This document shows positions 1-13,932 of a stretch of 19,866 nucleotides of DNA, in pieces. The stretch covers positions 1 through 19,866 of the forward strand of contig MHER01000154.1 of NCBI GenBank assembly GCA_001805205.1. The letters run 5' to 3'. The notes beneath the pieces were generated by a model. That model was not told the origin of the DNA, did not search any database, and saw nothing but the letters and a program-made list of their open reading frames with translations. A program made the position numbers and the translations under genes. Origin of the DNA: Nitrospirae bacterium RIFCSPLOW2_12_42_9 (GTDB lineage Bacteria; Nitrospirota; 9FT-COMBO-42-15; HDB-SIOI813). How positions within the stretch are numbered: the first letter of the stretch is position 1; every line of letters starts with the position of its first letter.

Positions 1-1225
1 AAGGACGTCCAGCGATGATTCGAGCTGAAAGAACAGGACCGATTCCATTGATAGACATAAGTTCTTCTTTGCTAGCGGTATTTAGGTCAAGTAAGCTTTG
101 TGGAGATTCGGTTTTTTCCAACTTTAAGGGGACGATATCATTGGAAACAGTGTCATTGTTTTTAAAACGGAAGGGTTCAGTGGAAAAATACGCAAAAATC
201 GGCAGGTGATCCGAATACCCATTGCCTATGTGCCTGCCCCTGCCTCTTTCAGTCATTTGCCAGCGATAAACGGTTCCCCCTTTGAACAGGTAGTCCGGAT
301 GGAACTTATCAAACGAATTATCGCTATAGGAAATTCCCTTATCATCATAAAGACCTCTGGATACGATAATATTATCCGGGCTCTCCTTCTTCCTGGAAAA
401 AATGTAAGACCAGCGGCTTGTTTCACTGATTTCAAGCCATAAATTATACAGATAATCATTCTTAGCCTGTTCTTTCAGTATTTTTTCATTGACCATATCA
501 TAATCTTTGATAGTCCTTAAGATATGATTGATTCCCGTGATATCTCCGGTATTGTTCAATCTGTAGGAATCTCGAAAGGTTTTGTATTCATTGTAGTTCT
601 CATTAAAATCACCTATTAGTATAAAGTCAGCATCTTTTTTTAGATTGTCAATCTCTTTCTTAAGTGTTTTGGCATAAGCTATTCTCATACTTTCAGGACC
701 GTTTTTCGATTTCCAGTGATTAATAAACAGGATGATACGATTACCATCGATATCAAGGGTTATCTTAAGAATATTTCTGGCAACTTCATTATCAACCTGT
801 ATTTCTTCTTTCCCAACAATTGGAAACTTAGACAGAACAGCGCACTTCACCGATGTGGCCTTGGAGTCCGCAATTTCAAGATAAGGGTAATCTACACCGA
901 AGTCTTTCAACCTGTCACGTAAAGTAATAAGGGCTTTTTCCGACTCGACTTCCTGCAAAGCGACAACATCACCTCCCAGGTCCTTTATCACTCTGGCAAT
1001 ATTGGCGTACTTAATATTTGCAATATCCTTAGTCCAGCCATAGCCGGTATTAGGAATATACTCCTGGTATTCCGTTCCAGAAATGGTAAGATCAAAAAGG
1101 TTTTCCACGTTATAGCTTGCGACTTTGAAAGTTTTGGCTTCTATTGATGTAATAGAGCACAGAAAAATAAACAAAGTTGATAGAATTATTGTTTTTATCA
1201 GCCATTTAAACTTCCACTTATTCAT
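1..1225 (-). CDS. Secreted endonuclease/exonuclease/phosphatase (EEP) family protein with C-terminal helix-hairpin-helix, 3' end outside window
   Basis: An open frame of 408 residues starts at ATG 1225-1223 and runs off the left edge without a stop. AGAGGA lies about 5 bases before the start. Residues 1-30 form a signal peptide (basic start, hydrophobic core, ending near SIEA), so the protein is probably exported. The EEP metal-dependent hydrolase motifs are intact: SYNVENLF (N39), LQEVE (E92), FINHW (H170), IGDFN (D206, N208) and YSDHLP (D339, H340). Residues 380-408 contain LNTASKEEL and INGIGP, a ComEA-type helix-hairpin-helix that normally binds DNA. This suggests an extracellular or periplasmic DNase, although EEP proteins can also cleave RNA or phosphoesters. 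The start lies 27 bases after attC-like site 1, so it may be an integron cassette gene. The family call is firm; substrate and cassette status are inferred. Confidence 0.85.
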   Translation of the reverse strand, partial: MNKWKFKWLIKTIILSTLFIFLCSITSIEAKTFKVASYNVENLFDLTISGTEYQEYIPNTGYGWTKDIANIKYANIARVIKDLGGDVVALQEVESEKALITLRDRLKDFGVDYPYLEIADSKATSVKCAVLSKFPIVGKEEIQVDNEVARNILKITLDIDGNRIILFINHWKSKNGPESMRIAYAKTLKKEIDNLKKDADFILIGDFNENYNEYKTFRDSYRLNNTGDITGINHILRTIKDYDMVNEKILKEQAKNDYLYNLWLEISETSRWSYIFSRKKESPDNIIVSRGLYDDKGISYSDNSFDKFHPDYLFKGGTVYRWQMTERGRGRHIGNGYSDHLPIFAYFSTEPFRFKNNDTVSNDIVPLKLEKTESPQSLLDLNTASKEELMSINGIGPVLSARIIAGRP

Positions 1226-1251: not shown

Positions 1252-1309
1252 GCCTAATGTCCCCAATCAGCAGCGGCTGTAAGCCGTCCGCTGGATTTTA
1301 TTGTTATGT
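1252..1309 (-). other. attC-like integron recombination site 1 (3' of hicA)
   Basis: Read on the minus strand, this 58-bp imperfect palindrome starts with ACATAAC (R'' type, core AAC) and ends with ATTAGGC (R' type, GTTAGGC with one change). Inside, the left arm ATCCAGCGG faces the right arm CCGCTG(CTG)ATT around GGC-TTACA-GCC. The left arm has one extra C compared with the pairing arm, matching the extrahelical base of attC sites and giving the same orientation as site 2. The right arm carries an extra CTG triplet. The hicA stop codon lies within R'', as is usual for cassette genes. The R' base change may reduce activity. It could instead be only a hairpin, but the position and boxes favour attC. 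Confidence 0.68.
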
Positions 1310-1477
1310 CAATTCTTTTATTATATGTCTTGCAAGATTTTCGTCTATTTCATCATGCCTTGGGACTGGCTGCTTTTTCCCTGTGGTAGGATTTTTGTAT
1401 AAGTCGTGGCGGCTCCCATGTCTAACAAGAATACATCCTGAATTAGTCAACCTTTTGATAAGGTCTTTTCTTTTCAT
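1304..1477 (-). CDS. hicA: HicA-type mRNA interferase toxin
   Basis: This 57-residue protein starts at ATG 1477 and ends with TAA inside the attC-like R'' box. HicA toxins are small double-stranded-RNA-binding-fold RNases that cleave mRNA and are held inactive by HicB. It has the family layout: an N-terminal KRKDLIKRL helix, VRHGSRHDLY with the likely catalytic His at residue 24, then NPTTGKKQPVPRH and a closing helix LARHIIKEL. The start overlaps the hicB stop by four bases (ATGA), so the two are translationally coupled with the antitoxin first. Length is normal for the family. No truncation or missing key residue is seen. Confidence 0.9.
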   Translation of the reverse strand: MKRKDLIKRLTNSGCILVRHGSRHDLYKNPTTGKKQPVPRHDEIDENLARHIIKELT

Positions 1478-1671
1478 ACGGGGATGGTAAGTTCTTTAAC
1501 TTTATGTTTCTCCGGAACGTCCTCCATCGTCATAAGCATATATGCATCTTTCATGTTTTCCTCAAGTTCTTCTAATGTCTCACCTTGAGTCATTATTTCG
1601 GGATGTTCAATGAGCTTTCCTACCCAGAATCTTTCACCTTTCCAATAAATCATTTTTAATTTTGTTTTCAT
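1474..1671 (-). CDS. hicB: HicB-type antitoxin, short form
   Basis: This 65-residue protein has the HicB partial RNase-H-like fold: the MIYWKGERFWVGKLIEHP strand region followed by the hallmark GETLEELEENMKDAY helix. It would bind and neutralise HicA. It lacks the C-terminal DNA-binding domain of longer HicB proteins, so autoregulation would need another route. GAGGTGA lies four bases before the ATG, a good ribosome-binding site. An extended -10 motif overlaps the upstream attC-like site, suggesting the pair has its own promoter. The order is hicB-hicA, with a four-base overlap. Family assignment is firm. Confidence 0.88.
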   Translation of the reverse strand: MKTKLKMIYWKGERFWVGKLIEHPEIMTQGETLEELEENMKDAYMLMTMEDVPEKHKVKELTIPV

Positions 1672-1701
1672 CTTTTCACCTCACACAGCGGTTTCATTAA
1701 A

Positions 1702-1710
1702 ATTATAACA
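1702..1710 (-). promoter_or_regulatory. Extended -10 promoter for hicBA, inside the attC-like R' box
   Basis: On the minus strand the bases read TGTTATAAT, a perfect TGnTATAAT extended -10. The last bases of the attC-like site (GTTATAA) form part of it. No good -35 is seen 17 bases upstream, as is common for extended -10 promoters. A start point about 7 bases downstream would leave a leader of roughly 25 bases before hicB. Confidence 0.55.
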
Positions 1711-1758
1711 CAGAGTTCACCGGGAGCGTAAGCGATCCGGTGGAACGACTCGTTAGGC
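1703..1758 (-). other. attC-like integron recombination site 2 (5' of hicBA)
   Basis: On the minus strand the site begins with GCCTAAC, a perfect RYYYAAC R'' box, and ends with GTTATAA (R' core GTT). The inner arms are TTCCACCGG and CCGGTGAA, separated by a GC-rich segment with GCTTACGC at the centre. The left arm carries one extra C, the classic extrahelical position of attC. The total length of 56 bp is within the short attC range. The upstream open frame ends with TAA inside the R'' box. This is the stronger of the two attC-like sites. Confidence 0.75.
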
Positions 1759-1827
1759 CTCCATTCTTTTTCGGTATTCAGGTCTTTGCTGTGCCAATTC
1801 CAATATCTCTATCAACTTCGAGTATGA
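1753..1827 (-). pseudogene. Possible truncated cassette gene (24-residue C-terminal tail)
   Basis: Between the aroC stop and attC-like site 2, one minus-strand frame stays open for 24 codons and ends with TAA inside the R'' box. It encodes SYSKLIEILELAQQRPEY followed by RKRMEA, which looks like a charged amphipathic helix. Cassette genes usually end at exactly this position. The frame has no plausible start and is closed upstream by TGA, 10 bases after the aroC stop. I read it as the remnant of a cassette gene cut off where the cluster joins the aroC operon. It is short, so chance cannot be excluded. Confidence 0.4.
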
Positions 1828-1839
1828 TCAGAGATTATC

Positions 1840-3003
1840 TTATATTCTTTTCATATAATCAATATACCCTTCATAATTCCTCTTTATCTCATCTATTGAA
1901 TCTCCACCGAACTTCTCTGAAAACCCGTTTGCAATTTCAATTGCAATCATAGCCTCACCTACAACACTGGCAGCAGGAACTGCACAGATGTCTGAACGTT
2001 CAATAGAGGCCTTAAAAGGTTTTTTAGTAACAATGTCTACTGAATCCAGGGGGGAATACAAGGTGGCAATAGGCTTCATTGCAGCACGTATCACTATATT
2101 TTCTCCATTCGTTATACCACCTTCAATCCCACCTGCCCTGTTTGTCTTTCTGTAAAAACTTCTGCTCTTTCTATTATAATAGATGCCGTCATGAACCTCT
2201 GAGCCAAATTTCCCCGCACATTCAAAACCAATGCCGATCTCAACGCCTTTTATAGCCTGAATACTCATGACTGCATATGCGAGCCGGGCATTCATCCTTT
2301 TATCCCACTGGGAATAACTACCTAAACCAACAGGTACATTAATTACAATAACCTCAAAAATACCACCAACTGAATCCCCTTTTTTTCTGGCTTCATCTAT
2401 TTTGTTCTTCATCATGGATTCTGCCTTTTTATCTCCGCATCTAAGCTCAGACTTTTCTGCGAGATCTATAAGATTATCAAGAGTAATTTTCCTCACCCTT
2501 GACTTAACTCCCCCAATCTCAATGACATGACTCAATATCTGAATACCGAAGACCCCGATGAATTTCTTTGCTACTGCACCAAGCGCAACCCTCATTGCTG
2601 TCTCACGTGCACTGGCCCTCTCAAGCACACTTCTTGTATCATTGTGGGAATATTTTATTATTCCTGTGAGGTCTGCATGACCTGGTCTTGGTTTCGTCTC
2701 AGGTAAAATACAATCTGCATGGGAAGGATCAGGAGACATCTTTTCAGACCAGTTTACCCAGTCTTTATTCTTTATTAAAAGCCCTATAGGACTGCCGAGT
2801 GTTTTGCCCCATCTGACCCCGCAGGTGATTTCCACAGAATCCTTTTCAATCTTCATCCTGTTGCCGCGGCCATAGCCAATTTGTCTGCGGGCTAATTCAT
2901 GATTTATATCATCACTGGAAAGTTCTAAACCGGCTGGTATACCTTCGATAATCCCGATGAGGGTCTGTCCATGGGATTCTCCGGCAGTAAGAAAACGAAG
3001 CAT
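1840..3003 (-). CDS. aroC: Chorismate synthase
   Basis: This 387-residue enzyme converts 5-enolpyruvylshikimate-3-phosphate to chorismate using reduced FMN, the last shared step of aromatic amino acid, folate and quinone synthesis. GESHG at residues 8-12 (His11) and RPGHAD at 106-111 (His110) carry the catalytic histidines. RSVLERASARET from residue 124 and EGGITNG near residue 300 are further signatures. Length matches the longer form found in Gram-positives and many non-proteobacterial lineages. It starts seven bases after pilQ, so it is probably the last gene of the pil operon. Just downstream the sequence changes to the cassette region. The reading frame is complete. Confidence 0.97.
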   Translation of the reverse strand: MLRFLTAGESHGQTLIGIIEGIPAGLELSSDDINHELARRQIGYGRGNRMKIEKDSVEITCGVRWGKTLGSPIGLLIKNKDWVNWSEKMSPDPSHADCILPETKPRPGHADLTGIIKYSHNDTRSVLERASARETAMRVALGAVAKKFIGVFGIQILSHVIEIGGVKSRVRKITLDNLIDLAEKSELRCGDKKAESMMKNKIDEARKKGDSVGGIFEVIVINVPVGLGSYSQWDKRMNARLAYAVMSIQAIKGVEIGIGFECAGKFGSEVHDGIYYNRKSRSFYRKTNRAGGIEGGITNGENIVIRAAMKPIATLYSPLDSVDIVTKKPFKASIERSDICAVPAASVVGEAMIAIEIANGFSEKFGGDSIDEIKRNYEGYIDYMKRI

Positions 3004-13804: not shown

Positions 13805-13873
13805 GTAGGGACAAACCTTTAGGTTTGTCCACTTCTATGCCGGTTTTGGACAGACCTAAAGGTCTGTCCCTAC
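13805..13873. repeat. REP-like doublet: two hairpins in inverted arrangement
   Basis: The element begins GTAGGGACA and ends TGTCCCTAC. Its left half is a perfect hairpin, GGACAAACC-TTTA-GGTTTGTCC (13809-13830). Its right half is another, GGACAGACC-TAAA-GGTCTGTCC (13848-13869). A 17-base linker separates them, and the halves can also pair with each other. This is the form of a REPIN or BIME-type element, usually dispersed in many copies and sometimes mobilised by a RAYT transposase. No such transposase is in the window. Confidence 0.72.
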
Positions 13874-13932
13874 ATCCTTTTCATGAGCGTGGGTGACAAT
13901 TGATAATGTCATGAACGTTTAGGCAATATCAT

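Follow-up and report, generated by a model that had tools for sequence, protein, structure and literature searches.

Organization of the Locus

The stretch of DNA analysed here, referred to in what follows as the window, is the whole of a 19,866-nt contig (C154) from a 2.05-Mb draft assembly that comprises 208 contigs and is 85% complete. Read along the minus strand, the features of interest follow one another as aroC, 81 bp, a palindromic site denoted site 2, hicB, hicA, a second such site denoted site 1 and a gene of the endonuclease/exonuclease/phosphatase type, Table 1. The host gene aroC, encoding chorismate synthase, forms one flank of the array, and the closest named match of its product is a protein from a Nitrospirae MAG (64% identity), on which the assignment to the phylum Nitrospirota rests. 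The endonuclease gene behind site 1 is present in 1 of 99 genomes, namely the source genome; it is accessory and probably the next cassette in the array. A 65-nt piece separates the aroC-side sequence from site 2; a search of the genome returned no longer copy of it, just matches of 16-27 nt, and it may conceivably be the stump of a preceding cassette, a reading weakened by the shortness of its open frame.

Of the two genes between the palindromes, hicA is recognized by its Pfam domain and hicB through the names of its homologues. The 65-residue HicB has no match in Pfam or NCBIfam, and against the PDB it gives a weak match to HicB (E 0.25). The pair shows the arrangement of a HicBA type II toxin-antitoxin system, a HicA domain beside HicB, with HicB assigned via homologue names only. 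For the HicA-HicB family, action as an mRNA interferase with its antitoxin is established (PMC4909258). A promoter scan (5 sites vs 1.8 expected) gave a promoter-like 9/12 match at the aroC end, positions 1862-1834 of the minus strand, that is directed into the array, and no match of at least 9/12 at site 2, where a TATAAT overlaps the R' box. Transcription of the array would probably start from the aro operon or from this promoter-like match.

Table 1. Positions of the features discussed in the text (window coordinates unless a locus, L, is given)
Feature	Position	Strand	Remarks
Endonuclease/exonuclease/phosphatase gene, helix-hairpin-helix end	2..1225	-	Pfam PF19580, E 6e-24; 408 aa; leaves the contig and goes on in contig C11
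Site 1, attC	1252..1309	-	R'' ACATAAC, R' ATTAGGC; model R1 18.3 bits, model R2 36.1 bits
hicBA cassette	1258..1708	-	451 bp core to core; match in genome G089 over cassette positions 2-444, 90%, without flanks
hicA, 57-aa HicA toxin	1304..1477	-	Pfam PF07927, E 4e-12, above cut-off; stop inside R'' of site 1
hicB, 65-aa short HicB-type antitoxin	1474..1671	-	homologues 88% identical carry the name HicB family antitoxin
Site 2, attC	1703..1758	-	R'' GCCTAAC, R' GTTATAA; model R1 19.4 bits, model R2 23.7 bits
65-nt piece between aroC-side sequence and site 2	1759..1823	-	end of a 24-codon open frame, stop TAA inside R'' of site 2
aroC, chorismate synthase	1840..3003	-	Pfam PF01264, E 3e-122; TIGR00033 above cut-off
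attI-like elements with complete 3' end	L125:6472-6717, L091:9080-9253, L126:2780-3022, L174:3147-3386, L173:3154-3406, L175:6876-6992, L134:8228-8332, L178:2491-2597, L135:5069-5116		other contigs of the source genome and of its family

Structure of the Two Sites

The preliminary description of this DNA had drawn attention to two imperfect palindromes of the same orientation around hicBA, and they are indeed found, both on the minus strand. At site 2 the R'' box is a perfect RYYYAAC and the R' box has a GTT core, with two bases that deviate from GTTRRRY; 9 of 9 stem positions pair once a single extra C of L'' is set aside, this being the one-base difference between the arms that had been claimed. 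Site 1 has the extra C in L'' as well (8.5 of 9 pairs), and its R'' box keeps the AAC core while containing the TAA stop of hicA, again as described. What the earlier account omitted is the change in the R' core of site 1, where ATT replaces GTT. Site 1 is probably poorly active owing to this ATT core, and the cassette would hence now be fixed. The core-to-core distance is the 451 bp originally given for the cassette. An attC of genome G001 (L139:5316-5373) has a left arm that is almost identical to the site 1 arm (AACAATAAAATCCAGCGGA).

Covariance Models and Nulls

Candidate attC sites for model building were picked by structure, using scans that require an L stem, on contigs around integrases above the TIGR02249 cut-off and on a contig of genome G016 that carries a partial, sub-cut-off integrase; these scans took the place of a regular-expression scan for the R boxes alone, which returned too many false matches. 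The arms were aligned without the middles, and the model then served to realign the sites in full; MAFFT applied to full sites misplaced the right arm. Model R1 was made from 13 attC sites of other genomes of the phylum, and model R2 from 26 sites, none from the window, of which 21 lie on the contigs just described and 5 elsewhere in the source genome, outside C154.

Both models, neither of which contains the two sites, match them. With R1 sites 2 and 1 rank first and second in the window, the next place scoring 11.4 bits, and R1 by itself is weak because several other places across 27 loci score almost as high (18.1, 18.0 and 17.3 bits). With R2 the next place in the window reaches 9.4 bits and is site 2 on the opposite strand, and 20 other contigs of the source genome (188,695 nt) give no match at E<=10. 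In a genome-wide search the match to site 1 is unambiguous (E 8.6e-5) and that to site 2, taken alone, marginal (E 0.078); chance would hardly account for two sites of one orientation on either side of a single gene pair. Sites of the quality of site 2 (perfect R'', GTT, 9-pair stem plus bulge) number one in the window, zero in 100 Markov-shuffled windows and zero in 188 kb of the other contigs of the source genome. Over 30 sites, in a model-fitted alignment that includes the two from the window, the stem shows covariation: 79 cells are changed on both sides vs 36.8 after shuffling and 4-28 in slid structures. An Rfam scan of the window gave no attC-type match, just sub-threshold chance matches. 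In summary, the two palindromes behave as attC sites.

No Integrase Found in the Draft Assembly

An integron integrase above the TIGR02249 cut-off is found in 9 of the 61 genomes searched. In the source genome, 85% complete, the best score is 83 bits vs a cut-off of 265, with no hit at E<=1e-28; at this completeness an integrase gene may just have escaped assembly. The earlier statement that no integrase is visible holds for the contig and for the assembly as it stands, and the label CALIN-like that had been given to the hicBA cassette fits a two-site CALIN, with two attC 451 bp apart and an integrase above cut-off neither nearby nor in the assembly.

Position between aroC and aroK

Nine genomes of the same family were examined, and aroC was found in seven. 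In all seven the next gene is aroK, for shikimate kinase (checked against Pfam SKI for G002 and the source genome), and neither hicBA nor the endonuclease gene follows aroC in any of the seven. In the source genome aroK lies on another contig, C11, and, like its counterparts in the relatives, it has aroB-like and sensor-like genes behind it. The start of C11 continues the endonuclease gene that leaves C154 to its stop, with 165 of 167 overlapping bases identical. Because the array is linked to aroC on C154 and its far end to aroK on C11, it can be placed between these two genes, so that, judged from the two contigs, it interrupts the aroC-aroK junction. The cassette had been described as docked behind aroC. 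The array does adjoin aroC, and its location is more exactly given as between aroC and aroK, with at least one further accessory gene. Comparison with relatives, which had been suggested as a check, gives the aroC-hicBA order at none of the seven same-family loci and the cassette itself in G089, a genome of another family.

The two edges of the array are not equally legible. On the aroC side the common sequence ends at 1824; this left edge is not at a G/TT core (the slash marks the integrase cut point), and the 65 nt follow. Beyond the endonuclease stop C11 has a possible eroded site, then 18 N that mask the right edge, and then the last 41 aroC-side bases fused to aroK. The eroded site was considered as a third attC and rejected, as it scores 5.4 bits with R1 and R2 has no match there at E<=10. 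The stretch with the 18-N gap and the direct passage from the aroC end to aroK (L083:329-387, 41 bp of it common with C154) is either an allele without the array, belonging to another strain, or an overlap produced by the assembly. Among 26 contigs of the source genome compared at their ends, the overlap beyond that of C154 with C11 is just a repeat common to C31 and C154. An inverted repeat lies at 13805-13922 of the window and coincides with a sub-threshold Rfam microRNA match; contig C31 opens with a copy of it (98% identity over 116 bp).

hicBA as a Mobile Unit

The G089 match extends over nearly the full length of the cassette and does not include its flanks: the 60 nt to the left are 37% identical and the 50 nt to the right 42%, in free-gap alignments for which random sequences give 32 +/- 20%. 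A second genome, G040, matches positions 3-422 of 451. Among the six relatives with cassette matches these two start at the left core and four fall short of it, while at the right end three matches extend into the attC and three end with hicA. A core-to-core unit in a different context is thus seen in G089 and is incomplete in the other five. G089 and G040 also have an extra common sequence upstream of hicBA that is missing from C154, which indicates that the C154 unit is cut exactly at the site 2 core.

HicB has no match at E<=1e-10 in the nine same-family genomes, and copies 88-94% identical occur in five genomes of other families; this distribution is a sign of horizontal transfer. Searches of plasmids with the hicBA region gave no match, and searches of viral contigs with HicB no relative. 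When R2 is run on 12 hicB loci, matches at E<=1 are found at five. The G129 locus has an attC just ahead of hicB (31.6 bits), as part of a four-match array, and the G040 locus has one directly after hicA (28.8 bits); a hicA stop within a -CATAAC box is seen again among relatives.

Since the R' of each site in an array belongs to the next cassette, its outer bases are expected to pair better with the next R'' than with their own. For 21 pairs of adjacent attC sites outside C154, one of them (L069) based on a poorly placed match, pairing with the next R'' is better in 15, equal in 6 and worse in none. For the C154 pair it rises from 1 of 4 with its own R'' to 2 of 4 with the next.

Other Candidate Cassettes and attI-like Elements

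The R2 search of the source genome yields eight matches, three on C31, one each on C208, C68 and C125 and the two in the window. Within the family, 9 of 10 genomes have attC matches at a threshold of E<=1, which admits weak ones, and an integrase above cut-off in 1 of 10. On C31 (L091:4546-8372) a BsuBI/PstI-type restriction-modification system is located between attC sites; it has 97% DNA identity to a contig of G007 (L127), from another genus, through the attC to about 12 nt past the core, and the left edge of this common block does not coincide with a core. C68 (L093:859-3494) carries NotI-type restriction-modification genes with an attC behind them, 94% identical over 645 nt to contig C6 of G001, a carrier of an integron integrase, with an edge that has no clear core. 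On C125 (L125:5793-6423) a gene for a BrnT toxin lies, together with one for a partner of 99 aa, between an attI-like element and an attC, which makes this pair a candidate for a second toxin-antitoxin cassette in the source genome.

The element just mentioned is conserved, up to 246 nt long, ends in TTTGCAGCTTACTTAATAG/TT and precedes first cassettes. Over 198 genomes we obtained 12 matches in 7 genomes; the 3' end is reached in 9 of the 12, which derive from six family genomes, the source genome contributing two, Table 1. Eight of the nine have G/TT at the 3' end, the copy on C123 of G006 having GTC, and five of the nine contigs show an attC (E<1e-3) further on. No intact integrase adjoins the element at any of the nine loci. 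In G004 the region upstream of it holds two fragments, not in the same frame, that correspond to positions 237-274 (E 3e-13) and 295-315 (E 2e-4) of the integron integrase profile, and a piece in G007 matches at 297-315 with just E 0.13. Several copies have a TTGACA/GATAAT pair, read by eye. From these sequence features the element may be read as an attI with its own promoter whose integrase gene has decayed. There is none at the C154 array.

One possible, if doubtful, picture is that the family integron fell apart. In most cases intI would be gone or survive as a 3' stump, each genome would keep attI-like docks with their own promoter at no more than two loci with a complete end, and an integrase working in trans would have moved toxin-antitoxin and restriction-modification cassettes between genera and spread them over the chromosome, the hicBA array being one product.

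Probable Origin of the Array

We consider it highly probable that hicBA is an integron cassette with an attC site at either end, and that it belongs to a short CALIN, devoid of an integrase, by which the aroC-aroK junction is interrupted. In the mechanism that we propose, an integrase would have joined an hicBA circle to an existing attC having the ends GCCTAAC and TTAGGC, giving on the minus strand GCCTAAC...G/TTATAA-hicBA-ACATAAC.../TTAGGC; it would have acted in trans or been lost later. HicA-HicB, as a toxin-antitoxin pair, may help to keep the array.

How the array came to lie at this junction is a separate matter. Direct insertion of cassettes into the aroC-aroK junction via a genomic attG site is unlikely. 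Such insertions have been described, as cited in PMC12444791 and PMC12901181, and two paired host genes are indeed separated by the array; the readable edge, however, is no recombination core and is followed by the short frame that ends in site 2, so that direct insertion is not supported, while the right edge is hidden by the N's. Because of this aroC-side edge and the 65 nt with their frame, we prefer a longer array that would have been trimmed on the aroC side.

It is also unlikely that the position of the array is an assembly artefact, with an array from elsewhere or present in a second strain only. The exact 41 bp that C11 shares with C154 where its aroC end runs directly onto aroK look like an assembly fork, the 18-N gap precedes that aroC end, and the 2 differences in the 167 bases of gene overlap are as in a strain mixture. 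The two contigs nevertheless place the array independently, C154 by array and aroC and scaffold C11 by far end and aroK, and even in a strain mixture the insertion stays real.

Arrival of hicBA together with its attC by ordinary or illegitimate recombination, never as a cassette circle at the aroC locus, is very unlikely. In most of the relatives compared the common block does not have a core at each of its ends, two of six starting at the left core, and the upstream sequence common to G089 and G040 is missing from C154; yet the matches of these same two genomes start precisely at the G/TT of site 2 (positions 2 and 3). Chance or terminator palindromes beside an ordinary toxin-antitoxin pair are extremely unlikely, since for all that the folding energies of the sites alone are weak (z just -1.6 to -2.3) and short elements of this kind are common, independent covariance models match, the nulls are empty, a match of cassette length exists in another family and no terminator-like site was found at the palindromes.

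With the hicBA cassette in its CALIN as the preferred reading, the array is a small and clean case of a cassette outside an integron, for which the uninterrupted gene order is known from relatives and perhaps from its own population. The family, with attC frequent and integrase rare, is a setting for studying the maintenance and dispersal of cassette arrays after the integrase has become scarce or disappeared.

Relation to Known Systems

A CALIN is a cluster of attC sites without an integron integrase (IntegronFinder 2.0, PMC9024848), and this agrees with the two same-orientation attC around a gene pair in C154, with no integrase nearby. The same source reports 2 CALINs in Candidatus Nitrospira inopinata; the C154 array differs in that it is from another lineage of the phylum, splits aroC and aroK, is of minimal size and has one core changed. 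Apart from these CALINs and a paper on archaeal integrons, no paper found on Nitrospirae integrons, attI or reverse or orphan integrons seems, from title and abstract, to treat the family, which falls short of proving that no such account exists.

HicAB cassettes are described in Treponema integrons (PMC4909258), and there as here hicB-hicA forms one cassette with its own attC. The Treponema HicB gene is 405 bp long and lies within integrons, whereas HicB of C154 has 65 residues and no integrase is seen. In Xanthomonas, according to PMC12444791, CALINs occupy fixed chromosomal places, and the C154 array resembles them as an integrase-less array by host genes, away from intI. The Xanthomonas CALINs recur across strains, unlike the C154 array, which is found in one genome and is missing from all seven relatives with aroC. 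Like the attG insertions that PMC12444791 and PMC12901181 cite from Loot et al. 2024, it has a cassette outside an integron, between host genes, and it departs from them in its coreless readable edge. HicAB cassettes and Nitrospira CALINs are, by these sources, already published, and the C154 array is a further example of a described class.
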